From the NCBI GenBank assembly GCA_019670725.1, contig AP024629.1:2604001-2668000 (forward strand): a DNA stretch of 64,000 bases, given 5' to 3'. Under the pieces are notes generated by a model. The model saw only the letters and a list, made by a program, of their open reading frames with translations, was not told the DNA's origin and ran no database searches. Shown piece after piece: positions 324 to 42,703 of the stretch; position 1 is the stretch's first letter, and each line of letters starts with the position of its first letter. This stretch comes from Alphaproteobacteria bacterium SO-S41 (lineage in GTDB: Bacteria > Pseudomonadota > Alphaproteobacteria > Micropepsales > Micropepsaceae). The position numbers and the translations under genes were made by a program.

Positions 324-1183
324 GGCCAGATACCGGCGAAGGGGAAATCCGGCCAGATCAGGCGGATGACGGCGATCGCCAGCGTCGCGGCGAGCAGGCT
401 GTCGAGGCGGTCGAGGAAGCCGCCATGACCGGGGATCACGGCGCCGGCGTCCTTGGCCTGGAAGCGGCGCTTGATGGCGGATTCGAGGACATCGCCGGCC
501 TGGCCGACGAACGACACGACGAGCATCGCGACGAGCAGCGCGGGATCGGGCGCCCGGCCGGCGACCGCAGCGAAGATCGCGCCGATGCCCATCGCGCCGA
601 CGAGACCGCCGAAGAAGCCGGACCAGGTTTTCTTGGGCGAGATTTTCGGGGCGAGCAACGGGCCTTTGAAGACCCGGCCGGCGATCATCGCCCAGCTATC
701 CGTCGCCCAGACGACGAAGAGGAACCAGAGCGTGGTGATCCACCCGTCCGGCGCACCACGAAGCCAGATGAGCGCGATGGCGGGGACACCGAGATAGAGC
801 GGCACCGCAAAGGCCCAACGGCGATGGCGGCCGGTGATCTGGGCATAGGCGAAGGAGGCGAGCGCGCCTACTCCGATGGCGGCGAAGGCATAGGGGTAAT
901 GGCCGAGGACGGCAAGCGAGGCGGCGACAGCATTGGCGGCCACGGGGATCGCGACGCCGGCCCAGGCGAACGGCGCCTGCGTCATCCGCTCCCACTCGAT
1001 CGCCATGACCGCGCAGGCGGTGACAATCCAGGCCGCGAAGTACCAGCCGCCGAGCCAGACGATGAGAAGCGCGAAACCGAACAGCACCAGCGCAGAAGCG
1101 AGGCGGATGCCGAAATCGCCGCCGAGCGGACCCCAGATCGAACCGCCGGAGGCTTTCGGGATCGGGCCGCTCGCTTCGGTCAT
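320..1183 (-). CDS. cdsA: Phosphatidate cytidylyltransferase
   Basis: 287 residues, strongly hydrophobic over most of the length, as expected for the multi-spanning inner-membrane enzyme that makes CDP-diacylglycerol from phosphatidate and CTP. The family signature is near the C-terminus: SAIKRRFQAKDAG followed by PGHGGFLDRLDSL, containing the conserved KD, HGG and DRLD elements. An N-terminal cytoplasmic stretch of about 25 residues precedes the first membrane segment. Its ATG overlaps the stop of uppS and its stop overlaps the start of dxr (both ATGA), the usual uppS-cdsA-dxr arrangement. Confidence 0.95.
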   Translation of the reverse strand: MTEASGPIPKASGGSIWGPLGGDFGIRLASALVLFGFALLIVWLGGWYFAAWIVTACAVMAIEWERMTQAPFAWAGVAIPVAANAVAASLAVLGHYPYAFAAIGVGALASFAYAQITGRHRRWAFAVPLYLGVPAIALIWLRGAPDGWITTLWFLFVVWATDSWAMIAGRVFKGPLLAPKISPKKTWSGFFGGLVGAMGIGAIFAAVAGRAPDPALLVAMLVVSFVGQAGDVLESAIKRRFQAKDAGAVIPGHGGFLDRLDSLLAATLAIAVIRLIWPDFPFAGIWP

Positions 1184-1914
1184 GCCGCGTCGCCTGCGCC
1201 ATAGCGGCGTTCGCGCTGGGTGAACTCGTCGATGGCGTCCTGCAGCGCGCGCTTGTCGAATTCCGGCCAGAGCGTCTCGGTGAAGACGAACTCGGCATAG
1301 GCCGATTGCCAGATCAGGAAGTTCGACAGCCGCTGCTCGCCGCTGGTGCGGATGACGAGATCGGGGTCGGGCACGCCGGCGGTGTGTAGGAACTGCGAGA
1401 TCGTATCGCGCGTGATGGAGGCGGGATCGAGCGCGCCGGACTTGGCCTCGGCGGCAATGGCGCGGACGGCATCGACGATCTCGTCCTGGCCACCATAGTT
1501 GAAGGCGATGGTGAGGTTGAGGCCGGTATTGGCCTCGGTCATCGAGCGGGCGTCGTCGAGCATCTTCAGGATGTCGGGCGAGACCCGGTCGCGGCCGCCG
1601 ATGAAGCGGAGGCGAACGTTCTTCGCGTGCATCTGCGCCAGATCCTCGCGGATGAAGCGGCGCAGCAGGCCCATGATGTCGGAGACCTCGTGGGGGTCGC
1701 GGCGCCAGTTCTCAGACGAGAAACTGTAGAGCGTGAGGTACGGAATGCCGATGTCGTTGGCCGCCGTGACCACGGCGCGGACGGCACGCATGCCGGCGTG
1801 GTGGCCGAGGACCCGGGGAAGCAGGCGGGCACGCGCCCAGCGGCGGTTGCCGTCCATGATGATGGCGATATGCCGGGGAAGCCGCTGCGCTTCGGGGGCG
1901 GAGGCGGCCTTCAT
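1180..1914 (-). CDS. uppS: Isoprenyl transferase (undecaprenyl diphosphate synthase)
   Basis: 244 residues from the ATG at 1914; the frame stays open to a TTG at 1923, but the ATG is preferred. The N-terminal motif HIAIIMDGNRRWA holds the catalytic Asp that binds diphosphate-Mg, and the C-terminal signature VIRTSGEQRLSNFLIWQSAY contains the Arg and Ser residues that bind IPP. The cytoplasmic cis-prenyltransferase condenses farnesyl diphosphate with isopentenyl diphosphates to make the C55 carrier for peptidoglycan and surface glycans. It lies 33 bases after frr and overlaps cdsA by 4 bases. Confidence 0.95.
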   Translation of the reverse strand: MKAASAPEAQRLPRHIAIIMDGNRRWARARLLPRVLGHHAGMRAVRAVVTAANDIGIPYLTLYSFSSENWRRDPHEVSDIMGLLRRFIREDLAQMHAKNVRLRFIGGRDRVSPDILKMLDDARSMTEANTGLNLTIAFNYGGQDEIVDAVRAIAAEAKSGALDPASITRDTISQFLHTAGVPDPDLVIRTSGEQRLSNFLIWQSAYAEFVFTETLWPEFDKRALQDAIDEFTQRERRYGAGDAA

Positions 1915-1947
1915 ACTGAACAATCCCGATACGCCACCCGCTTCACC

Positions 1948-2514
1948 TCAGACCTGCATGATCTCCTGTTCCTTGCCGGCGAGCGCGGTATCGATCTCCT
2001 TGATCTCCGCATCTGTCGCCTTCTGGACTTCTTCGGACTGCTTCTTGTGCACGTCCTCGCCGATCACATGGTCTTTTTCGAGGCGCTTCAAGTAGTCCAT
2101 GCCGTCGCGGCGAACATTGCGCACCGCGACGCGGGCGGCCTCGGCATATTTGCTGGCGAGCTTGGCGAGCTCCTTGCGGCGCTCCTCGTTCAGCGGCGGG
2201 ATCGGAATGCGGAGCAGCGTGCCGTCGACCTGCGGATTGAGACCGAGCCCGCCGTTGCGGATCGCCTTGTCGACCGCGGCGACGGTGCCCTTGTCCCACA
2301 CGGTCAGCGTGATCATGCGCGGCTCGGGCACGTTCACGGTCGCGACCTCGTTCAGCTTCATCGTCTGGCCATAGGCCTCGACGGTGACGGGATCGAGCAG
2401 CGAGGCCGAGGCGCGGCCGGTGCGCAGGCCGGCGAATTCCTGCTTCAGCGTCGCCACCGCGCCGTGCATGCGGCGTTTGATGTCGTTCAGATCGAGCGGT
2501 TGCAGTTGGGCCAT
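1948..2514 (-). CDS. frr: Ribosome recycling factor
   Basis: 188 residues, the usual family length. The protein shows the three-helix-bundle pattern of RRF: a first helix ([19 protein letters not shown]), the [14 protein letters not shown] segment, then the small beta domain, and a long Lys/Glu-rich C-terminal helix. With EF-G it splits post-termination ribosomes. A strong Shine-Dalgarno (aggggagg, reverse strand) sits just upstream of the ATG. It lies 25 bases downstream of pyrH in the rpsB-tsf-pyrH-frr translation operon common to bacteria. Confidence 0.96.
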
Positions 2515-2539
2515 CGCATCCTCCCCTAAGGATTGGTCG

Positions 2540-3274
2540 TTACATGCCCGGACGGGCGTCCTCGATAACCGTAGAGCGCGCGTTGCCGGTCAAGGCGCGC
2601 GCGAAGTTGCCGCTTTCGTGGATGTCGAAGACGACGATCGGAATATTGTTCTCGCGCGCCAGGCTGATCGCGGCGGCGTCCATGACCTTGAGATCCTTGG
2701 CGAGGACCTCGTGATGGGTCAGGCGCTCGTAACGGACGGCGTTCGGGTCTTTCTTGGGATCGGCGGAATAGACGCCGTCGACCTGCGTGCCCTTGAAGAG
2801 CGCGTCGCAGTCCATTTCGTTGGCGCGGAGCGCGGCGGCCGTGTCGGTCGTGAAGTACGGGTTGCCGGTGCCGGCGGCGAAGATAACTACCCTGCCCTTT
2901 TCCATGTGCCGGACGGCGCGGCGGCGGACATAGGGTTCGGACACCGCGCTCATCGGAATGGCCGACTGGACGCGGGTGGGCACGCCGATCTTTTCCAGCG
3001 CGTTCTGCATGGCGAGCGCGTTCATGACGGTCGCCAGCATGCCCATATAGTCGGCGCTCGCGCGGTCCATGCCCGAGGCCGCGGCGCTGAGGCCGCGGAA
3101 GATGTTGCCGCCGCCGATGACGAGGCAGACCTGGGCGCCGGTGCCGACGCCCTCTTTGACGTCGGCAGCGATCTGATCGACCGTATGCAGATCGATGCCG
3201 TAATTGCGGTTCCCCATCAACGCCTCACCCGACACCTTCAGGAGCACTCTTTTGTAGAGTAGGCCGTCAGTCAT
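2540..3274 (-). CDS. pyrH: Uridylate kinase (UMP kinase)
   Basis: 244 residues, the normal length for the bacterial hexameric UMP kinase of the amino acid kinase fold. The N-terminal [14 protein letters not shown] phosphate-binding motif, the GGGNIFRG loop, the [17 protein letters not shown] region that contacts UMP, and the [12 protein letters not shown] motif are all present. It phosphorylates UMP to UDP for nucleotide and cell-wall sugar-nucleotide synthesis. It follows tsf by 47 bases and precedes frr. Confidence 0.96.
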
Positions 3275-3321
3275 GTGTCGGGTCTCCGGGTTGGCGGGGT
3301 TCCTTGAGTCGGGCGATCCTA

Positions 3322-4245
3322 TCAGCCTTTGGCGGCCGCCATCACTTCGGCCGCGAAGTCGCTTTCTTCCTTCTCAATGCCCTCGCCGAGCGCAATGCGA
3401 TGGAAGCCGGTGATCTTGATCTCGCCGCCGACCTTGCCGGCCGCTTCCTTGGCCGCCTGGGCAACGGTCTGCGTGCCGTTGTGGACGAAGGGCTGGTCGA
3501 GCAGGCAGACCTCCTTGAGGAAGGTCTTGATGCCGGACTCGACGATCTTCTCGACGATGTTGGCAGGCTTGCCGGAGGCGGCGGCCTTGTCGGCGATGAT
3601 GGCCTTCTCGCGCTCGATCAGCGCCGGGTCGATGCCCGAGGCATCGACGGCCAGCGGAGTCGCGGCGGCGATGTGCATCGCGACCTGACGGCCGAACGCG
3701 GTCAGCGCTTCCGCCGAGCCGGTCGATTCCAGCGCGACGATGACGCCGATCTTGCCGAGGCCGGGCGCGATCTGGGTGTGGATGTAGGACGCGACGACGC
3801 CCTGCTCGACCGACAGCATGGCCGCACGGCGCAGCGCCATGTGCTCGCCGATCTTGGCGACGGTCGCCTGGATCTTGTCGGCGACCGTGCCGCCGCCCGG
3901 ATAGGCCGCGGCCTTCACGGTTTCGACGTCGGCGCCCTGGTCGAGCGCGATCGCGGCGATGGCGGACACCATCTCCTGGAATTCGGTGTTGCGCGCAACG
4001 AAGTCGGTCTCGGAGTTCACCTCGACGACAACGCCCTTGGTGCCGGCGAGCGCAACGCCCACGAGGCCTTCAGCGGCGGTGCGGCCGGCCTTCTTGGCGG
4101 CCTTGGTGATGCCCTTCTTGCGCAGCCAGTCGATGGCGGCCTCGATGTCGCCGTTCGTCTCGGTCAGCGCGGTCTTGCAGTCCATCATGCCGGCGCCGGT
4201 CTTCTCGCGCAGGTCTTTCACCATCGAGGCGGTAATGGCGGTCAT
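3322..4245 (-). CDS. tsf: Elongation factor Ts
   Basis: 307 residues from the ATG at 4245. The open frame runs further upstream, but homology begins at [20 protein letters not shown], the conserved N-terminal module that inserts between EF-Tu domains, and an aaggac ribosome site precedes it. The motif [14 protein letters not shown] and the core region with [12 protein letters not shown] are diagnostic. The protein is the guanine nucleotide exchange factor that regenerates EF-Tu-GTP. It is separated from rpsB by 100 bases containing a terminator-like hairpin, which may adjust the S2 to EF-Ts ratio. Confidence 0.96.
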
Positions 4246-4290
4246 GGCAGTGTCCTTGTCTTCGTTTCGATGCGCCATCGGGCGCGCAGA

Positions 4291-4328
4291 TAAGAAACGG
4301 GCGGCCGCATCATCGATACGGCCGCCCG
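4291..4328 (-). terminator. Hairpin with T-rich tail between rpsB and tsf
   Basis: Read leftward, the spacer has a perfect 10-base inverted repeat (cgggcggccg at 4298-4307 against 4319-4328, 11-base loop) directly followed by tttctta. This is the form of an intrinsic terminator placed after rpsB and before tsf. Since tsf is normally co-transcribed with rpsB, it probably acts as a partial terminator or attenuator rather than a full stop. Confidence 0.6.
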
Positions 4329-4345
4329 AACGAATTGGTTTTCGA

Positions 4346-5107
4346 TCAGGCGGCGGTGGCGGGCAGCTCCTCGACCGGGGCTTCTTCCGAAGCACCGAGG
4401 TCGACGCCCGAGGCGCCCTGGCTTTCCGACAGGCCGTCGACGATCGCGCGGGCGACGAGGTCGCAATAGAGCGAGATCGCGCGGGCCGCGTCGTCGTTGC
4501 CGGGAACCGGGAACGAGATGCCGTCCGGGTCGCAGTTCGAGTCGAGGATCGCGACGACCGGGATGTTCAGCTTGCGGGCTTCGGCGATGGCGATCGCTTC
4601 CTTGTTCGTGTCGATCACGAACAGGAGGTCCGGCAGGCCGCCCATTTCCTTGATGCCGCCGAGCGAACGCTCAAGCTTCTCGCGGTCGCGGGTGCGCTCC
4701 AGCGCTTCGCGCTTGGTGAGGCCCACGGCGCCCGAGTCCAGGGTCTCTTCAAGCTGGCGAAGGCGCTTGATGGAGTTGGAGATCGTCTGCCAGTTGGTCA
4801 GCGTGCCGCCGAGCCAACGGTGATTGACATAATACTGGGCCGAGCGGCGCGCCGCGTCCGCGATCGGCTCCGACGCCTGGCGCTTGGTGCCGACGAAGAG
4901 GATGCGGCCACCGGCGGCGGCCGTCTTCTTCACCTGGAGCAGCGCCTGGTGAAGCAGCGGGACCGACTGCGCGAGGTCGATGATGTGGATGTTGTTACGC
5001 GCGCCGAAAATGTAGGGCTCCATCTTCGGGTTCCAGCGATGGGTCTGGTGACCGAAGTGAGCGCCCGCTTCGAGCAAATCGCGCATAGAAAAATTCGGCA
5101 AAGCCAT
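4346..5107 (-). CDS. rpsB: 30S ribosomal protein S2
   Basis: 253 residues, close to the family norm. The N-terminus ([20 protein letters not shown]) and the middle block ([23 protein letters not shown]) are classic S2 signatures, as is [20 protein letters not shown]. The protein sits on the 30S back and is needed for S1 binding. The C-terminus carries an acidic Ala/Glu-rich tail of about 25 residues. It is the first gene of the leftward operon, and a candidate promoter lies about 130 bases upstream, giving a leader of roughly 120 nt that could take part in S2 autoregulation. Confidence 0.97.
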
Positions 5108-5234
5108 GTGCCGTAACTCCTTGACCGGTTGTTCCGCCGCGGCCCAAATGACGGCTTAAGGCCGCCACCGGTGGTAGAGACGAGTTCGGGCCTGGGCCGT
5201 TCCCCGCGTCTTGACCGCGTGTGAGATGGCGCGG

Positions 5235-5263
5235 CTTATACGGCCCTCGCCCGCCCGGCGCAA
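5235..5263 (-). promoter_or_regulatory. Candidate sigma-70 promoter for rpsB
   Basis: On the minus strand TTGCGC (5258-5263) and TATAAG (5235-5240) are separated by exactly 17 bases, a good match to a housekeeping promoter. It points to rpsB, and the predicted start near 5228 would leave a leader of about 120 nt. It lies just upstream of the divergent aminotransferase gene. This is pattern matching only; no transcript evidence is available. Confidence 0.5.
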
Positions 5264-5313
5264 CCCTTGCGTCCCGCCGAATTTCCCCGTTTTCCGCCTC
5301 CGGAGTCCTTGCC

Positions 5314-6498
5314 GTGACTGTTCGCGACCCCATCCGCGCCGAAATGCTGTCCTTCCGGCCGAACGCCATCGCCCAGGTCGCCGTCGGGAACATCGGCGAT
5401 CCCGGGATCATCCCCTTGTGGTTCGGGGAAACCGACCTCGTGACCCCCGCCTTCATCCGCGACGCCGCCAAGCAGGCGCTGGATGATGGGCTCACCTTCT
5501 ATGTCACCCCCGGCGGGCATCAGCGCCTGCGCACCGCGATCCAGGACTGGACGGCCCGCTGGTACGGCGTGACGCCGGCGATGGAGCGGATCTGGGTGCC
5601 GGGCGCCGCGATGTTGTGCATCGTGACCGCCTTGCAGACCTGCGTGAATACCGGCGACGAGGTCGTCGTGCTGACCCCGATGTGGCCGAATATCAGCCAG
5701 GCCGTCGAAGCGACCGGCGGGACGCCGCGCTATGTCCGGCTGGACCACGATGCCGCCAAGGGCGAGTGGGCGCTGGACCTGAACAAGATCGAAGCCGCCA
5801 TCGGGCCGCGGACCAAGGCGCTGTTTATCGGCTCACCGGGCAACCCGACGGGCTGGGTGATTTCGGACGACGAGATCAAGGCGCTGATCGAGATCAGCCG
5901 CCGCAAGGGCGTCGCGATCATCGCGGACGAGGTCTATTCGGTGCTGTTCTATGAGGGGAAGCGCGCGCCCTCGTTCATCGATCACGCCAGCGAGGACGAC
6001 AACGTCTTCATCGTCAACAGCTTCTCCAAGGCGTGGGCGATGACGGGCTGGCGGGTGGGCTGGCTGGTCGCGCCGCGGCGCCTGGCTCCGGCGATGGCGC
6101 AGCTCTCGGTCAGCAACAATACGGGCGCGACGGTCTTCGCGCAGTTCGGCGCGGTGGCGGCGCTGGAGCAAGGCGATCCCTTCATCGCCGAGATGGTCGA
6201 GCGCTGCCGCCGCGGGCGCGACATGGTGGCGGACTTCGTCGCCGGGCAGAACCGGCTGAGCTGGGTGAAGCCGAAAGGCGCTTTCTATGCCTATGTCGCG
6301 GTAGACGGGCTGAAGGACTCGATCGGCTTCGCGAAGAACCTGCTGGCAACAACCAAGGTCGGCGTCGCGCCGGGCGCGGCGTTCGCGAGCGGCGAAGGCG
6401 ATACGCGGGATGAGAGCTATCTCAGGCTCTGCTTCGCGCAGGACCCCAAGCGGCTCGGCGAAGCGCTGGAACGGATCGGCAAGGCGCTGCTGGCCTAA
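5314..6498 (+). CDS. Class I/II pyridoxal-phosphate aminotransferase
   Basis: 394 residues if translation starts at the GTG at 5314, which has a cggag ribosome site 8 bases upstream; the frame is open back to 5221, but those residues look non-coding and would overlap the rpsB promoter. The fold type I motifs are clear: substrate-side loop WFGETDLVTP, LFIGSPGNPTGWV, the Asp of IADEVYSVLFYEG, and the Schiff-base lysine in NSFSKAWAMTGWRVGW. It resembles aspartate/aromatic aminotransferases of the AspC-like group; the substrate cannot be told from sequence. It is the only plus-strand gene before 36 kb and ends facing dnaE. Confidence 0.85.
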   Translation: MTVRDPIRAEMLSFRPNAIAQVAVGNIGDPGIIPLWFGETDLVTPAFIRDAAKQALDDGLTFYVTPGGHQRLRTAIQDWTARWYGVTPAMERIWVPGAAMLCIVTALQTCVNTGDEVVVLTPMWPNISQAVEATGGTPRYVRLDHDAAKGEWALDLNKIEAAIGPRTKALFIGSPGNPTGWVISDDEIKALIEISRRKGVAIIADEVYSVLFYEGKRAPSFIDHASEDDNVFIVNSFSKAWAMTGWRVGWLVAPRRLAPAMAQLSVSNNTGATVFAQFGAVAALEQGDPFIAEMVERCRRGRDMVADFVAGQNRLSWVKPKGAFYAYVAVDGLKDSIGFAKNLLATTKVGVAPGAAFASGEGDTRDESYLRLCFAQDPKRLGEALERIGKALLA

Positions 6499-6596: not shown

Positions 6597-6619
6597 AATG
6601 GGGATAGAGCGCGAGCGCT

Positions 6620-9600
6620 CTAAACCTCCTCCACCTCCACCACTCCCGTCAGCGCGCGGATGGCGCGGCGGAGGTCGGGGGTGACGGCGTAGCGGCCGAT
6701 GTCGATTTCGGCGGAGCGGCCGCCATCCAGCATCAGCGCGAGACTGACGCGGCCCTTGCCCTTGCGGGGTTCCAGGATGCCGCGCAGGGGTGCCATGGCC
6801 TTCGGCGCGTCCAGCGTGATCTTGAGGCCGGCGCTGGTCGATTTCGCGGCATCGTTCAGCGACTTCACGGCATGCGTGCGCAAGCGCGGCTGATCGTCTT
6901 CCCAATCGATCGTGACCGTGAAGACAACCGCCGCGCCGGGGCGCAACAACTCGTCATTCGCGGCGAGCAGTTCGCTGAACACCGTCGTCTCGAAGACCGC
7001 CGTCTGGTCGGAGATGCGGATGAAGGCATAGGGCCGCCCGGGGTCCCTGCCCTGCTTGTCCTTGCGGTCGAGGATGATGCCGGCGAGGCTGACCGCCCCG
7101 CCCTCCTGCTTGCCGCTCATCCCCGCCTGCGCCCACGTCTTCACGCCGAGGCGCTTCAACGCCAGGGCATAGTCATCAAGCGGATGACCGGAGAGGTAGA
7201 AGCCGATCGCCTCGAATTCGCGCTGCAGGCGTTCACTGGAATCCCACACACCCTTGATCGGCAGCTTGGGGTCCTTCACCTGATCCGCGCCGCCGAAGAG
7301 CGAGACCTGGCCGCTCTCGCGCTCACGGTGCTCGCTGTCGGAATGGGCGAGCATCAGTTCGGCGGCGGCGAAGACCTGCGCGCGGTTCGGCGTGATGGAA
7401 TCGAACGCGCCCGCGGAGGAGAGATTTTCCAGCGCGCGCTTGTTCACGAGGCGCGAGTCCACCCGGCGGGCGAAATCGAACAGCGTCTTGAACGGTCCGC
7501 TCGCGCGCGCCGCGACGACGCGCTCCATCGCCTGCCGGCCGACATTGCGGATGGCGCCGAGGGCATAGCGGATCGCGGCCTTGCCGTCCTCGCCATACTC
7601 GACCGAGAACACCGCCGTTGAGGCGTTCACGTCGGGCGGCAGGACCTTGATGCCGAGGCGTTCGGCTTCCTGGCGGTAGATGTTCAGCTTGGTCGTGTCG
7701 CCCATGTCGAGCGTCATCGAGGCGCAGAGGAATTCGGCCGGGTAGTTCGCCTTGAGAAAGGCGGTCTGATAGGCGACCTGCGCATAGGCGGCCGCATGGC
7801 CCTTGTTGAAACCGTAGCCCGCGAACTTGTCGGCCTGCTGGAAGATTTCTTCCGCCGTGTCCTTGATGATGCCGCGCTCCTTGGCGCCGGCGACGAAGCG
7901 CGCTTTCTGGCGCGCCATCTCGTCCTTGTCCTTCTTGCCCATGGCACGGCGCAGAAGGTCGGCATCGCCCAGCGAATACCCAGCGAGTTCGCGGGCGATC
8001 ATCATGACGTCCTCCTGGTACGTCATCACGCCATAGGTGTCGTTCAGGATCGGCTCCAGCAGCGGATGGAGATAGGTCACCTCCTCGCGGCCGTTCTTGC
8101 AGGCGATGTATTTCGGGATCGAGTCCATCGGACCAGGGCGATAGAGCGCCACGAGCGCGATGATGTCCTCGATCCGGTCCGGCTTCAGCCGGCGGATGAG
8201 ATCGCGCATACCCTGGCTTTCCAGCTGGAACACGCCGATCGTGTCGCCGCGCGAAAGCATCTCGTAGGTGCGCCGGTCGTCGAACTTCATCTCGTCGCCG
8301 GTGCGGATGGCAAGGCCGCGCGCGGCGAGCAGTTTTTCGGTTTCCGCAATGACGGTGAGCGTCTTCAGGCCGAGGAAGTCGAACTTCACGAGGCCGACGG
8401 TTTCAGCATCCTTGTAGTCGAACTGGCTGGCCGGCAGGTCCGCCTTCTGGTCGTGATAGAGCGGCACCAGCTCGGGCAACGGACGATCGCCGATGACGAG
8501 GCCTGCCGCGTGGGTCGAGGCGTTGCGGTAAAGGCCTTCCAGCTTCTCGGCGACTTCGAAGAGGCGCGCGACGCCGTCGTCGTTGCGGATGAGATCGCGC
8601 AGCTTGGGATCGGCGTTCACCGCCTCGCGCAGCGTGACCTGCTTGCCCGGCTGGTTCGGCACCATCTTGCAGATGCGATCGACGAAATTATAGCCCATCT
8701 GCAGCACGCGCCCGACATCGCGCAGGCAGGCACGAGCCGCCAAGGTACCGAAGGTGATGATCTGGGCGACGCGGTCGACGCCGTATTTGCCCTGGACATA
8801 GCGGATGACCTCGCCGCGCCGCTCCTGACAGAAGTCGATGTCGAAGTCCGGCATCGAGACGCGTTCCGGGTTCAAGAAGCGCTCGAAGACGAGGTTGAAG
8901 CGAAGCGGATCGAGCGAGGTGATGTCGAGCGCCCAGGCGGCGATCGAGGTCGCGCCCGAACCGCGGACGCCGACGGGGATGCCCTGCGAGCGCGTCCACT
9001 TCATGAAGTCGGAGACGATGAGGAAGTAGCCCTCGAAACCCATGCGGGTGATGACGTCGAGTTCGTAGTCGAGCCGCTTGAAGTAGTCCTCGCGCGGTTT
9101 GAAGAGCGGGAAGGTTTCGAGCCGCGTCGTCAGGCCGGCATGGGCCAGCAAGCGCAGTTCTTCAGGCGCCGTATGGCCCGCGGGCACGGGGAAGTCCGGC
9201 AGGATGGGTTTGCGCTTGATCGGGCGGTAGGCGCAGCGTTTGGCGATCTCCACGGTGTTGGCGATCGCCTCGGGGAGATCGGCGAACAGCGCCGTCATTT
9301 CCTCGGCCGATTTGAAGCGGTGTTCGGAGGTAACGCGCGGGCGATCGTCCTCGTTTACATAACGGCCGGCGGCGATGCAGAGCAGCGCGTCATGCGCCTC
9401 GTACATGCCTTCATTGCCGAAGAAGCATTCGTTGGTCGCGACCAGCGGCAGGCGGCGGGCATAGGCGATATCGATGAGAACGGGTTCGGCGGTCTTCTCG
9501 GACGGCGCGCCGTGGCGCTGCAGCTCGATATAGAAGCGGTTCGGGAAGGCGGCGGCGAAGCGGGCGGCGAGTTCGCTGGCATCGGCCGGGCGGCCTTCGA

Positions 9601-35438: not shown

Positions 35439-35515
35439 TGGCGGGAGCGACGGGGCTCGAACCCGCGACCTCCGGCGTGACAGGCCGGCACTCTAACCAA
35501 CTGAGCTACGCCCCC
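35439..35515 (-). tRNA. tRNA-Asp (GTC)
   Basis: Read leftward, 77 nt with a 7-base acceptor stem (GGGGGCG/CGCTCCC, one G-T pair), D arm with TAGCTCAGTTGGTTAGAG, anticodon GTC (35479-35481) in the loop CTGTCAC, T arm GCGGGTTCGAGCCCCGT, discriminator G and an encoded CCA end. It marks the left flank of the plus-strand SOS mutagenesis cassette. Confidence 0.97.
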
Positions 35516-36414: not shown

Positions 36415-36429
36415 GTTCTTCTTTTGTTC
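36415..36429 (+). promoter_or_regulatory. LexA (SOS) box, GTTC-N7-GTTC
   Basis: GTTC at 36415-36418 and GTTC at 36426-36429 are separated by exactly 7 bases (ttctttt), a perfect match to the alphaproteobacterial LexA consensus. It is 31 bases before the ATG of the glycosylase-ImuA fusion gene. A ttgagt at 36407-36412 could be the -35 element with the box filling the spacer. The position means that codons upstream of 36430 are promoter, not coding sequence, and so favours the start at 36461. Confidence 0.85.
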
Positions 36430-36460: not shown

Positions 36461-37942
36461 ATGCAGCCCTTGTTCGATCTCTTCGGCGTGCCGCCCCTCG
36501 CTGCGGTGCGCCCCATCCTGCGGGACCGGTTCGGGTCCCAGCGAGATGCCGAGCGCGGCGATCCCGTTGCGGTTCTGATCGACGCCATCATCAGTTCAAA
36601 GACCCGCGATGCGGTTTCCGGCGCCGCGTTCGAGCGCCTGATCGAACGCTTCCCTACCTGGGAAGACCTGATGAGCGCAGAGGTCCGCGAGATCCAAGCG
36701 CAGATCGAAACGGTGCAATATCCCGAAACGAAAGCGCCCGTCGTGATTGCGGCGTTGAAGGCGATCCACGCTTACGCCGAACGCTTCACGCTCGACTTCC
36801 TCGCGCCGCGTCCGGTCGAAGCCGCCCATCTGTGGCTGGAGCGGATCAAGGGCGTGGGGCGCAAGATCTCCGCGGCGGCCCTGAACTTCAGCACGCTGCG
36901 CAAGCGCACCCTAGTCATCGATACGCATGTGCTGCGCGTCGCCCACCGCATCGGCTGGGTTTCGCCGAGCGCTCGTGATGCCGCCACGGCCTATGGCCCG
37001 CTGATGGCGCTGGTGCCACCTAGTTGGGATGCGGACGACCTCTACGAGTTCCATTGCCTCGTCAAAAAACTCAGCCAGACCGTGTGCGCCTATCAGGACC
37101 CGGACTGCGACCAATGCCCCCTCGCCGCGCAGTGCCAGCGGTTCGGTGTTGAGCCTAACGGACCTTCGACAAACGCTTCTGCCGTGATTGAGCTTCGTCC
37201 GAGCCCGGACGAACTGCGATCGCGCGTGGCCAAGCTGGACCGGTCGGATCAGTTGACGGCCTGGGGCGTCAGTCCGTTCGGCGATCCGCGCGTGGATTCC
37301 TATCTGCCCGGCAATGGACTGCCGCGTGGCCATTGGCACGAAATCACTGGTGCGGGGACTGAAAACGAATTGCCCGCCGCCGTGACGGGTTTCACGGCCT
37401 CACTGGCAGCGCGCACGGCCGGCGGGGGCATGATCCTGTGGGCGCTTCAGCGGGACGACATTCATCCGCCGGGCTTGCAGGTGTTCGGCCTCAACCCGGA
37501 TCGGCTGATCTTTGTAAGGGCAGCCAAGGATGCCGACATTCTGTCTGTGGTGGAAAGCGCGTTGCGCACGCGCGGTGTTGCAGCGGTGGTCGGTGAGGTT
37601 GCGACGCTCAGTCTGACGGCCGGCAAACGGCTGCAGCTCGCCTGCGAGCGCGGCGGCGCGACCGGGCTCCTGCTGCGCCGCCAGCTTTATGCCTCGAGTG
37701 CCGAGGATGAAGGGACGACGGCGACAACGCGGTGGAGCATCGCGCCTTCCCCCAGCGAAACAGATGAACCCGGCCTTGGTCTGCCGCGCTGGGAGGTGCG
37801 ACTGGAACGCTGTCGCGGTGGACGCACAGGCGCATGGATCATGGAGGCCGAAAATGCGACGGGCGATGTCCGTGTGGTTGCCGAACTGGCAGATCACAAG
37901 ATGGAAGCGGAACCCGCGCGCGGCCGCCTTACCGGAACCTGA
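36461..37942 (+). CDS. Fusion of endonuclease III-type DNA glycosylase with ImuA
   Basis: 493 residues in one uninterrupted frame from the ATG at 36461. Residues about 1-230 form a complete HhH-GPD glycosylase: helix-hairpin-helix IKGVGRKISAAALNF with catalytic Lys135, IDTHVLRVAHR with catalytic Asp154, and the iron-sulfur loop Cys209-X6-Cys216-X2-Cys219-X5-Cys225. These match the Lys120, Asp138 and FCL cluster of E. coli Nth, so base removal and AP-lyase activity are expected. Residues about 250-493 are ImuA, the RecA/SulA-like mutasome protein (LPGNGLPRGHWHEITGAGTE, GGGMILWALQRDDIHPPGLQ). ImuA is normally a separate protein of about 250 residues. The 3' end overlaps imuB by 89 bases. A LexA box precedes it. 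The link between glycosylase and mutasome is inferred from the fusion. Confidence 0.9.
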   Translation: MQPLFDLFGVPPLAAVRPILRDRFGSQRDAERGDPVAVLIDAIISSKTRDAVSGAAFERLIERFPTWEDLMSAEVREIQAQIETVQYPETKAPVVIAALKAIHAYAERFTLDFLAPRPVEAAHLWLERIKGVGRKISAAALNFSTLRKRTLVIDTHVLRVAHRIGWVSPSARDAATAYGPLMALVPPSWDADDLYEFHCLVKKLSQTVCAYQDPDCDQCPLAAQCQRFGVEPNGPSTNASAVIELRPSPDELRSRVAKLDRSDQLTAWGVSPFGDPRVDSYLPGNGLPRGHWHEITGAGTENELPAAVTGFTASLAARTAGGGMILWALQRDDIHPPGLQVFGLNPDRLIFVRAAKDADILSVVESALRTRGVAAVVGEVATLSLTAGKRLQLACERGGATGLLLRRQLYASSAEDEGTTATTRWSIAPSPSETDEPGLGLPRWEVRLERCRGGRTGAWIMEAENATGDVRVVAELADHKMEAEPARGRLTGT

Positions 37943-39428
37943 GCCTGATCCAGAAGCATCGAAGGAAGAGCCGCCCAAGCCCATGGGCATGGCGATTGTG
38001 GCCTTGGAGAACGGTGCACGGCGACTGACCGCCGTGGACGACCTCGCGGCCAGCGAAGGTGCGTTTCCCGGACAGTCCATGGCAGATGCGCTGGCGCTGC
38101 TGCCCCGTCTCAAGATCGTCGATGCGGAAGTTGATGAAGACGCTGCGGCGCTGGGCCGGCTGGCCGACTGGTGCGTCCGCTTCTCGCCAAACGTGGCGAT
38201 CGATCCGCCGGACGGCCTGTTTTTCGATATCGCCGGCTGCGCGCATCTCTGGGGCGGTGAGGCGGCGATGGCTGCCACGCTGCTCCAGCGTCTAACCGCC
38301 CAGGAAATTCCTGCGCGCATCGCCATAGCGGACACATTCGGCGCCGCATGGGCGTTGGCGCGGCATGCGCCCGAAACTATCACGATTGCCCAGCCGGACG
38401 ACGAAGCCAGCCTGCTGTCATCGCTGCCGGTGGAGGCGCTCAGGCTTGAAGACAGCCAGGCGCATCAACTTCGCCGTCTTGGCCTGACGACGATCGGTCA
38501 GGTCGCCGCCCTGCCCAGCATCGCGCTCCGCAAACGGTTCAGCGACGATTTGATGATGCGGCTCGCCCGCGCACGCGGCGAGGCGGAAGAAGTGCTGCAC
38601 TTCCGCTATCCCCCTGCCCCCTGGAGCGAACGCAAGGTTTTCGCCGAACCGATCGGCAAGCCGGAAGACTCGATGCTCCTGCTGCGCGATCTGGCAAAAG
38701 CCCTATTCGCACGCCTGGAGCGTGCGGGACTGGGGTCGCGCTTGTTCCTGGCGACCTTCTATCGGGTCGACGGCGATGTCGCGGTGCGCAATGTCAGGAC
38801 GGCATTACCCGCCCGCGAGCCAAGGCGGCTCGTCGATCTGTTTGCGCCGAAACTGGAAACGCTCGACCCCGGCTTCGGGATCGAAACGATCGTATTGTCG
38901 GCGGGCGATGTCGAACCGCTCAAGCACGCGCAGTTCGATCTGGTTGAGGCGACCGTCGATGCCCGCGACGCCGATCTCGCACCATTGATCGACCGGCTGC
39001 GCAACCGCTTCGGCGCCGGCGAGGTATGGCGGGCTGCCCCCTACCCCAGCCATGTGCCGGAACGCGCCTCGATCCGCATCGCGCCATTGGAACAGCCACA
39101 CAACGAAACGTGGAGGCTTGATCAATCACGTCCTGTGCGGCTGCTCCGGTGGCCGGAGACACTCGATCCAGTACTCGCGCCACTTCCAGACGATCCGCCG
39201 CGCCGCTTCCACTGGCGCGGCCATGCGCATCTGATCCGCCGCGCAGAGGGACCTGAACGCATCGGCGCGGAATGGTGGCGGCGGCCTTGGGCGGAGAACG
39301 CAGACGATCGTATCCGCGACTACTATCAGGTTGAGGACGATAGCGGCGCACGCTTCTGGGTCTTCCGAACCGGGCTGCATGGTGGCCCACGCGACGTTCA
39401 GTGGTGGCTGCACGGCTTCTTTGCATGA
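37854..39428 (+). CDS. imuB: ImuB, catalytically inactive Y-family polymerase homologue
   Basis: 524 residues from the ATG at 37854, which has a ggagg site 6 bases upstream inside the 3' end of the preceding gene. Y-family layout, but the first catalytic Asp is replaced ([15 protein letters not shown]) and the Asp-Glu pair of the palm reads [14 protein letters not shown], so polymerase activity is not expected; this is the known state of ImuB. It is the clamp-binding hub that brings DnaE2 and ImuA together during damage-induced mutagenesis. The C-terminal region has the family ending [17 protein letters not shown]. Its stop overlaps the dnaE2 start (ATGA). Confidence 0.93.
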
Positions 39429-42400
39429 CGACGCCTGCCTATGCCGAGCTTCAGGTGACGAGCAATTTTTCGTTCCTGCGCGGCGCGTCGCATGCGCGCG
39501 AACTTGTAGAGCGCGCCGCGGAGCTAAAGCTTTCGGCCATCGCCATTACCGACACCAATACGTTGGCCGGTATCGTCCGGGGACACGTGGCGGCGCTGGG
39601 CGCTGGCTTGCGCTTCATCGTCGGCGCTCGACTGGATTTCACCTGCGGTGCGCCGAGCGTTTTGTGCTTCCCCAAGGATCGTTCGGCCTATGGCCGCTTG
39701 GCGCGCATGATCAGCCGCGGACAGTTGCGCCGGAAGAAGGGAGAATGCCAGCTCACCTATGACGACCTACAAGCCGATGGCGAAGGGCAGATCCTCGTCG
39801 TACTGCCGCCGGCAACCCTGACCGATGCATTCGAGGATTGGCTGAAACGTCTGCGCGGTGACTTTCGCAAGAATGTCTATCTCGCAGCATCGCGACTTTA
39901 CGGCGCCAATGATGCCAAGCGCCTCCATCGCCTGGCGGCTTTGGCGCGCAGAATGCGCACACCGCTCGTGGCGACGGGAGACGTGCTTTATCATGAGGCG
40001 CGGCGGCGGCCGCTGCAGGATGTGCTCACCTGTATCCGCGAGAAGTGCACGATCGCCGAAGCCGGCCTGAGATTGGAAGCGAATGCCGAACGGCATTTGA
40101 AAGCGCCGGATGAAATGGCTCGGCTGTTCGCAGCCCATCCCGAGGCAATCGCCAACACGATGGAGATCGTACGGCAATGCCGCTTCTCGCTCTTAGAACT
40201 GCAGTACGAATATCCCGACGAGCCGGTGCCGCCTGGCAAGACACCGGACCAACATCTGGCGGATTTAACGTGGTCAGGCGCCGCAACGCGCTATCACCCT
40301 TATCGTATCCCTCAGATTGTTCAGTCCGCTCTGTATAAAGAGCTCGCATTCATCGCGGATCAGAAGATCGCCAAATATTTCCTCACCGTGCACGACATCG
40401 TGCGCTTCGCACGGGGGCGGAACATTCTTTGCCAAGGCCGCGGATCAGCTGCCAACAGCGCCGTGTGCTTCTGTTTAGGCGTTACCGCTGTCGATCCCAC
40501 CGAGACCAAGCTGTTGTTCGAACGGTTCATGTCTAAGGAGCGCAATGAGCCGCCGGACATTGACGTGGACTTCGAACATGAGCGCCGCGAAGAGGTCATC
40601 CAGTACATCTACGAGCGCTACGGACGCGACCGCGCCGCCATTTGCGCAACCGTTATCCACTACCGCTCACGTAGCGCTATCCGCGATGTCGGCAAGGCGC
40701 TTGGCCTGACTGAGGACGTCACGGCGGCTTTGGCCGATACGGTATGGGGATCGTGGAACGACGCTTTGCCCGAAGCCCACGTCAAACAGGCAGGCTTTGA
40801 CCCCGAGAACATTGAAATCGCACGTGCCGTAGACCTTGCACGCGAGCTGCTCAATTTCCCACGTCACCTATCTCAACATGTAGGCGGCTTTGTGCTGACG
40901 AAGTATCGCCTCGACGAAACGGTGCCCATCGGCCATGCCGCGATGGACAACCGGACGTTCATAGAATGGGACAAGGACGATATCGACGAACTCGGTCTGA
41001 TGAAGGTCGATGTATTGGCGCTCGGCATGCTGAGCTGTCTGCGGCGTGGCTTTCATTTGGCTAACCAGCATCACGGCCTCAACCTGAAGGACGTTGCCGA
41101 TATCAAGGGTGCCGACAAGGCGGTCTATGACATGCTCTCGAAGGGAGACTCCCTTGGTGTCTTCCAGGTCGAGAGTCGTGCGCAGATGTCTATGCTCCCG
41201 CGATTACGCCCGCAAAAGTTCTACGATCTCGTCATAGAGGTCGCGATCGTTCGCCCCGGGCCTATTCAGGGCAACATGGTGCATCCCTATCTGAAACGGC
41301 GAGAGAATCCCGAGCTGATCTCTTATCCCAAACCTGCCCCCGAACACGGCCCGGCAAACGAACTTGAGGAGATTCTAGGCCGCACTAAGGGAGTGCCATT
41401 GTTCCAAGAGCAAGCGATGGCCATCGCGCTCACCGCAGCTAAGTTTACACCTGAAGAAGCCAATGGCCTCAGGCGTGCGATGGCAACGTTCCGCCATGTT
41501 GGCACCATCCACACATACGAAAACCTTTTCGTGTCGAGCTTGATAAGGCGCGGATACGACCCCGATTTCGCCAGAAAGTGCTTCGAACAGATAAGGGGCT
41601 TCGGCTCCTACGGCTTTCCAGAAAGCCACGCAGCCAGCTTCGCCAAGCTCGTCTACGCGTCGGCCTGGATCAAATGCCATTATCCCGACGTGTTCTGCGC
41701 AGCGATCCTGAACAGCCAGCCGATGGGGTTTTATCAGCCGGCGCAGCTTGTTCGCGATGCCCGCGAGCACGGCGTCGAGGTACGGGCACCGGATGTCTTC
41801 GCGAGCGACTGGGACTGCACGTTGGAAGAGCCTTCGAAAGAGGGAAAATGGAAAGCCGTTCGTCTGGGGCTGCGACTGATCCGTGGGCTGCACGAGGAGG
41901 ATGCAAAGCGTTTGCTCGAAGCCCGCGAAGCCGGCGCGCGTACGCTCGAAGATCTCGCGCATTGGCCGAAGATCGATCGCGGCGTACTCGAACGTATCGC
42001 CGATGCCGATGCCTATCGCAGCGTGGCACTCGACCGTCGGGCCGCCCTGTGGCGAGCCAGCGGGCTAAAGGACCGGCGCAATCTCGCGACGGAAGCTCCG
42101 CTGCTCGCGCCGCTCGGCGCAACGGCGGAAGACGATGTGTCCCTGCCCGCCATCCGCACGGCAGAGCATGTCGCAGAAGACTATCGCACGACGCAGCTCT
42201 CGCTGAAGAAGCACCCCTGCGCGTTTTTCCGGGGCGGGTTGACGAAACGCCGGGCGGTTCTTGCGCAGGATCTGTCCCGGCAGCGTTCAGGGCGCCGGGT
42301 CGTGACCGCGGGTCTGGTGCTCAACCGGCAGCGGCCGCAGACTGCGAAAAACGTCATGTTCGCGACGCTGGAGGACGAGAGCGGGGTTGCCAATCTCGTG

Positions 42401-42616
42401 ATCTGGGACGCGATCTTTCAGGCGAACCGCAAGGTTCTGATGACCGGCTCGTTCCTGCTGGTGCGCGGCGAAGTGCAGACGGCAAGCAATGTCACCCATG
42501 TGATCGTCCGCGAGGTCGAGGATCTGACGCATCTGCTGTCGCGGCTGCGCGAGGGCACCGCTGCGGCGAACGTGCACAAGCCGGAGCGGCTGCAGGCGAG
42601 CCGGGATTTTCACTGA
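39425..42616 (+). CDS. dnaE2: Error-prone DNA polymerase DnaE2 (ImuC)
   Basis: 1063 residues from the ATG at 39425, overlapping imuB by 4 bases. PHP domain at the N-terminus ([17 protein letters not shown]), polymerase acidic motif [32 protein letters not shown] in the fingers, OB fold near the end and the family C-terminus SRDFH. It lacks the long C-terminal tau-binding region of DnaE1. It carries out translesion synthesis in the SOS mutasome. The central part of the gene (roughly 40.2-41.6 kb) is visibly less GC-rich than the window average, in line with horizontal spread of this cassette. Confidence 0.96.
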
Positions 42617-42627
42617 TGCGGTTGGAA

Positions 42628-42703
<76 letters not shown>

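Follow-up and report, generated by a model that had tools for sequence, protein, structure and literature searches.

In the Micropepsaceae bacterium SO-S41, a HhH-GPD DNA glycosylase is joined in frame to the mutasome protein ImuA, and the fusion gene stands behind a LexA box at the head of an imuB-dnaE2 cassette. The fusion is one arrangement of a wider family of SOS-boxed alphaproteobacterial glycosylases, and comparisons of domain trees show at least two independent origins of such fusions. In lineages with a linked or fused glycosylase, base excision and error-prone copying are probably coupled. The reading preferred here, with slightly more than even confidence, is that a base-excision enzyme is held at the DnaE2 mutasome by ImuA, via ImuB, and that lesions in SOS gaps would be excised and then filled or bypassed by DnaE2. 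The window referred to below is the whole 64,000-nucleotide stretch of contig AP024629.1 that was analysed.

Positions 36461-37942 translate to 493 residues without a stop. The mechanical open reading frame begins upstream at TTG 36407, and the start is placed at ATG 36461 because this codon matches the conserved family start 'MQ'. The cassette has the following features.

36415-36429, plus strand: LexA (SOS) box GTTCTTCTTTTGTTC, a GTTC-N7-GTTC direct repeat and the single perfect match in the window
36461-37942, plus strand: glycosylase-ImuA fusion gene, 493 aa (translation, domain calls)
36461-37150, plus strand: HhH-GPD [4Fe-4S] DNA glycosylase domain, residues 1-230 (Pfam, NCBIfam, AlphaFold2, PDB matches)
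36599-36601, plus strand: codon of Lys47, a DNA-intercalating position, equivalent to Gln41 of E. coli Nth and Arg61 of DrEndoIII1 (alignment; PMC9268735)
36719-36721, plus strand: codon of Tyr87, a DNA-intercalating position, equivalent to Leu81 of E. coli Nth and Tyr100 of DrEndoIII1 (alignment; PMC9268735)
36863-36865, plus strand: codon of Lys135, equivalent to the catalytic Lys120 of E. coli Nth (alignment)
36920-36922, plus strand: codon of Asp154, equivalent to the catalytic Asp138 of E. coli Nth (alignment)
37085-37135, plus strand: four-cysteine iron-sulfur loop Cys209-Cys225, C-X6-C-X2-C-X5-C (alignment)
37151-37207, plus strand: linker, residues 231-249, in frame and open
37208-37939, plus strand: ImuA domain, residues 250-493, start approximate (NF033429, AlphaFold2, PDB matches to RecA)
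37854-39428, plus strand: imuB, 524 aa, which starts within the 3' end of the fusion gene (Pfam IMS)
38931-38945, plus strand: candidate beta-clamp motif QFDLV of ImuB, found by eye, ahead of RecA-NT, an order shared with M. smegmatis ImuB (PMC11791113)
38967-39035, plus strand: candidate RecA-NT motif of ImuB, a putative ImuA-binding site of 23 residues, found by eye
39425-42616, plus strand: dnaE2, error-prone DNA polymerase, 1063 aa (NF004225, 1413 bits, cut-off 939)

The Pfam HhH-GPD model matches residues 41-170 of the fusion (E 2.8e-12, above cut-off), the NCBIfam glycosylase model NF053634 matches residues 20-230 (E 2.3e-33), and the NCBIfam ImuA model matches residues 270-412 (E 4.8e-12). 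AlphaFold2 models were made for the two domains separately. The glycosylase domain has a mean pLDDT of 94, and its best PDB matches are structures of Deinococcus radiodurans EndoIII-1 (TM 0.80, 32% identity); the ImuA domain has a mean pLDDT of 82, with RecA as the top fold in the PDB. Both fused domains are complete. The original prediction of an in-frame fusion at the head of an imuB-dnaE2 cassette is borne out by the frame, by the profile-HMM matches to its domains and by the two genes that follow. A separate ImuA might be made from an internal GTG (37184 or 37226); inspection of the sequence revealed no clear Shine-Dalgarno at either codon.

The ImuA half scores 46.2 bits against NF033429, for which the cut-off is 150, and the unfused ImuA proteins of imu operons score 36-64 bits. 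It has a RecA-like fold, its sequence contains no Walker A motif GxxxxGK[ST], and it is encoded directly ahead of imuB-dnaE2. ImuB is matched by Pfam IMS above cut-off and weakly by IMS_C, and is homologous over its full length to ImuB of the class. Mycobacterial ImuB binds ImuA via a RecA-NT motif that adjoins the clamp motif (PMC11791113). The fusion gene, imuB and dnaE2 follow one another in overlapping frames, with an overlap of 4 nt between imuB and dnaE2. The cassette resembles the ImuA-ImuB-DnaE2 (ImuABC) mutasome of Proteobacteria in gene order, LexA box, RecA-like ImuA without Walker A, and error-prone DnaE2. In contrast to that mutasome, its ImuA carries an N-terminal glycosylase.

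LexA boxes of the same genome are also found at recA and at a second imu cassette. The second imuA-imuB-dnaE2 cassette (L157, G000:C1:1436500-1446500, ~1089-6386, minus strand) is complete and unfused, with its own LexA box, and its DnaE2 is 53% identical. In the ImuA tree, the closest relative of the window protein is the second ImuA of the same genome, whereas the ImuAs of its genus are distant, and the cassette was therefore probably acquired horizontally. The cassette is flanked by tRNA-Asp and tRNA-Val genes, both on the minus strand (35439-35515 and 42628-42703). Its third-position G+C is lower than that of lon, a neighbouring gene, as would be expected of a horizontally acquired cassette.

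Fused glycosylase-ImuA genes occur in four genomes, and the database search thus established that the window fusion is not unique. L097 is a Hyphomicrobiales MAG with a fusion of 465 aa, in which the linker is shorter than that of the window, and L160 belongs to the same family as L097. The fourth fusion, L204 (1482-3128, 520 aa), came from the Caulobacteraceae search and is followed by imuB and dnaE2; its linker is longer and its ImuA divergent. A chance fusion is dismissed because three other genomes carry the same fusion. An assembly or sequencing error that deleted a stop between two genes is likewise rejected as very improbable. Seven same-family relatives of the window do have the two as separate adjacent genes, which speaks for such an error. 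However, the fusions come from four independent assemblies, two of which (L097 and L160) are 76% identical and equal in length, the source genome of the window is one contig, third-position G+C stays at ~0.7 throughout the linker, and the fused pair L097 and L160 is under selection. A plasmid origin was also considered and rejected: 567 plasmid records match, none over more than 80% of the query, and in the best of them the match is essentially confined to ImuA.

Between L097 and L160, dN/dS is 0.14 for the glycosylase and 0.16 for ImuA. Selection therefore keeps both halves while they are fused, in agreement with the original view that the glycosylase is not a decaying passenger. L097 groups with the unfused L107 and L140 in both domain trees, and the window lies elsewhere. 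The AU test rejects one common origin for the fusions of the window and L097 (p 0.0002 for the glycosylase, 0.0005 for ImuA). When L160 and L204 are added to the ImuA tree, a clade of window, L097 and L160 is rejected at p 1e-6 and one of L204, L097 and L160 at p 0.002; in the glycosylase tree with these two additions, the badly read row L198_gly was kept as a flagged long branch. The rejection of a single clade of window and L204 is only marginal (AU p 0.033 for the glycosylase, 0.056 for ImuA). On these trees, three independent fusion origins are likely.

In the glycosylase half, Lys135, Asp154 and Cys209/216/219/225 are exactly where the original prediction had placed them, and the cysteines correspond to C187/194/197/203 of E. 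coli Nth and are invariant across the family alignment. The further claim that no residue needed for activity has been lost holds for the catalytic Lys and Asp and for the iron-sulfur cysteines; it fails at the intercalating positions, where Gln is replaced by Lys47 and Leu by Tyr87. Across the family, the Gln41 site is mostly Arg or Lys, and the Leu81 site mostly Phe, His, Trp or Tyr. The Nth equivalog model TIGR01083 gives the fusion 57.5 bits, below its cut-off of 211.7, and gives E. coli Nth 300.2 bits. The DR2438-type model NF053634 scores 115.6 bits, also below its cut-off of 400, and is the best match by E-value in 17 of the 17 family members scanned. The tree places the family in a clade apart from Nth with support of 100/100, and by this score and topology the family is not orthologous to Nth. 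E. coli Nth shares with the window glycosylase the HhH-GPD fold, the Lys/Asp pair and the four-cysteine cluster, but the two are about 20% identical and Nth has Gln41 and Leu81 at the intercalating sites. The identification as a classical bifunctional endonuclease III is thus unsupported, given the score, the separate clade and the DrEndoIII1-like change of both contact residues, and this part of the original prediction is abandoned.

The best structural and profile match is D. radiodurans endonuclease III-1 (DR2438; PDB 4unf; NF053634), whose DNA-contact substitutions are of the same kind (Arg/Lys and aromatic); in contrast to the window protein, no imu cassette appears in any published description of it that was found. 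DrEndoIII1 is weak and mostly monofunctional, and can process single-stranded DNA (PMC9268735). Since the intercalating residues are changed as in this enzyme, classical EndoIII/AP-lyase activity is not to be assumed. An enzyme that acts on single-stranded DNA and does not cut it would suit a mutasome at gaps. The DR2438-near clade (L038, L039, L041, L149, L152, L154), with a GVGPKTSAA motif, has neither a LexA box nor adjoining imu genes.

The catalytic Lys is kept in 52 and the Asp in 51 of the 53 family members examined. In the imu-linked L066, Glu replaces the catalytic Asp, and an intercalating position is Glu in the Labrys members and Cys in one Bradyrhizobiaceae member, all of them imu-linked; given these substitutions, enzymatic activity may vary among family members. 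The glycosylase domain could serve chiefly as a sensor that has little or no catalytic activity, recognises damaged or abasic DNA by binding and recruits the mutasome to such sites. Such a role would be economical on ImuA, as ImuA is an adaptor, and it has a precedent in DrEndoIII3, which retains the Lys and Asp and binds damaged DNA tightly with undetectable activity (PMC9268735). The few imu-linked members that are substituted at or near the catalytic Asp also point in this direction. A pure sensor, however, would not need the two catalytic residues together, and both are kept almost throughout the family; together with the low dN/dS in the fused L097 and L160, this makes a sensor role unlikely. 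In the LexA-boxed L043 (1486-2178, minus strand), the catalytic Lys position is Glu (GVGPEVAATVM), and this glycosylase is possibly an inactive binding form.

The LexA box lies 32 nt 5' of ATG 36461 and had not been mentioned in the original prediction. It has the form of the Caulobacter SOS box, GTTCN7GTTC (PMC9578287), and its place in the promoter region of the fusion gene is that of a box in the alphaproteobacterial SOS regulon. The motif GTTC-N7-GTTC stands just 5' of the glycosylase at 40 of the 46 loci of the GTDB scan and at all 30 Caulobacteraceae loci (L174-L203), and before none of 40 ordinary Nth or MutY genes; the ordinary Nth genes examined differ from the family in this respect. 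The chance expectation of a box is ~0.0005 per gene and 1.86 per single window. A box alone in one window would thus be unremarkable, and it is not attributed to chance because its position is conserved among relatives. At four of the six unboxed loci of the GTDB scan, the glycosylase lies directly behind dnaE2 inside the imu operon. In Caulobacter, CCNA_02355 belongs to the early SOS genes, shows LexA-dependent damage induction and has the box GTTCttgttatGTTC (PMC12700426), and CC2272 is listed as endonuclease III, a second nth (PMC1839093). The box of CCNA_02355 is identical to the boxes of the family members L197 and L204. CCNA_02355 is probably CC_2272 and, given the matching box, presumably a member of the family. 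SOS control of the stand-alone enzyme is thus probably already known. The C. crescentus gene shares an SOS box with the fusion, and it differs in that no imu genes adjoin the glycosylase at the 30 Caulobacteraceae family loci checked. A DUF72 gene lies 3' of the glycosylase in about 40% of these 30 loci.

The 46 loci from the GTDB scan all seem to come from Alphaproteobacteria, although a few titles only say Proteobacteria. The glycosylase is found alone, before ung, first or last in imuAB-dnaE2 operons, or fused to ImuA. In the order of the window, 8 of 96 genomes have the glycosylase, and in all eight it is joined to imu genes: as a separate first gene in seven, which belong to the family of the window and have it directly 5' of imuA, and fused in the window itself. 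Outside this order, the glycosylase heads the operon in L107, L140, L146, L147, L150, L151, L153, L159, L163 and L164, so that it is first in an imuAB-dnaE2 operon in at least 17 genomes (7 and at least 10). It stands at the tail of the operon in Labrys, a Bradyrhizobiaceae MAG and others. Linkage to imu changes at least five times on the glycosylase tree. In the class sample, ImuB is present in 11 of 11 genomes with the glycosylase and in 171 of 385 overall (p 1e-4, genome size ignored).

These arrangements bear on whether the two activities merely share their expression, in which case they would belong to separate pathways and the fusion would just hold two SOS proteins to one transcript or stoichiometry. 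Many family members are stand-alone SOS-boxed genes. In addition, in several same-family relatives of the window the glycosylase and imuA are in the same frame less than about 60 nt apart, and the loss of a stop easily fuses such neighbours. On the other hand, the glycosylase has come to lie at either end of imu operons, with at least five changes of state, at least two fusion events took place, and two diverged species (L097 and L160) retain the fusion. Co-expression as the whole explanation is therefore rather improbable. The repeated operon linkage and the independent fusions are most economically read as physical delivery of the glycosylase to the mutasome. Tethering is not required for the function of the glycosylase, because most genomes (Caulobacteraceae, Sphingomonas, Rhodobacterales) have it away from imu.

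In Sphingomonas, ung reads as the next gene after 30-34 nt in 13 of 14 loci, two of them profile-checked; at the fourteenth, L131, the script picked another frame. The glycosylase-ung loci are L115, L116, L120-L124, L126-L129, L132 and L133, with the genes at about 6,600-7,400. The pairing suggests an SOS-induced excision operon, and the SOS box ahead of it fits real base excision under SOS. By analogy, the glycosylase could instead act at the N-glycosyl bond to unhook bulky adducts or interstrand crosslinks, with the tethered DnaE2 complex then copying past the remnant. SOS regulation fits this proposal in general. Mycobacterial Nei2, which is damage-inducible and active on single-stranded DNA, gives protection from psoralen crosslinks, for which its AP-lyase activity is not essential and does not suffice (PMC11323726), and mycobacteria without imuA or imuB are more sensitive to mitomycin C (PMC11791113). 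However, Nei2 has a different fold, no sequence feature of the fusion points to crosslinks, and the Sphingomonas partner ung points to base lesions. Crosslink repair is thus an unlikely main role.

In the preferred tethering model, DNA damage would release LexA and switch on the entire cassette. Docking of the C-terminal RecA-like ImuA on ImuB, at its RecA-NT motif, would bring the protein into the ImuB-DnaE2-clamp complex and hold the N-terminal glycosylase, a [4Fe-4S] HhH enzyme of the type of Deinococcus EndoIII-1, on the mutasome. The tethered glycosylase would take damaged bases out of gapped or single-stranded DNA at the worksite of the mutasome. DnaE2 would then copy across the abasic site or fill the excision gap, and a weak or absent AP-lyase would leave the template unbroken. 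We infer the binding to ImuB, the activity, the substrate and the order of these events. A more far-reaching and more tentative proposal is that the SOS mutasome of part of the Alphaproteobacteria is an excise-then-copy machine, in which a mostly monofunctional glycosylase held by ImuA makes abasic sites in single-stranded gaps and DnaE2 copies them.

A glycosylase-mutasome link appears to be undescribed. The fusion had been presented as new, and no published link or fusion was found in the literature searched, which excluded several key subscription papers. A 2026 survey of DnaE2/Y-family complexes distinguishes 11 mutasome types, and the word glycosylase is absent from the text searched (PMC12926913). 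No such link occurs in the searched passages of a 2013 study of SOS neighbourhoods and a 2019 Y-family study, which with the 2026 survey were the likeliest places for a mention. Two known systems are comparable in part. The mycobacterial lhr-nei2 operon likewise combines a damage-inducible glycosylase with another repair machine (PMC11323726), whereas its enzyme has the Nei fold, its partner is a helicase, and the two are unfused. In some strains of Yersinia pestis and Salmonella enterica, DnaE-UDG fusions (DnaEX) join a glycosylase domain to a C-family polymerase homologue (PMC3919608). In contrast to the present fusion, they have the UDG fold, lie on the polymerase itself and not on ImuA, and belong to another lineage.

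The common view is that base excision repair and translesion synthesis are separate, even competing, responses to lesions. The repeated linkage at both ends of imuAB-dnaE2 operons, together with at least two independent events that fused the enzyme to ImuA, provides strong genomic evidence for a coupling of both in some bacteria. An SOS-regulated EndoIII-like family that had no known role thereby gains a likely partner process, and for ImuA, itself poorly understood, a task that can be tested is proposed, as the carrier of an enzyme to ImuB-DnaE2. The stand-alone form is present in the tractable hosts Caulobacter and Sphingomonas, and what DnaE2 actually copies is testable by mutation spectra. 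If the excise-then-copy proposal is true, base excision would be a regular step of SOS mutagenesis and not its competitor.
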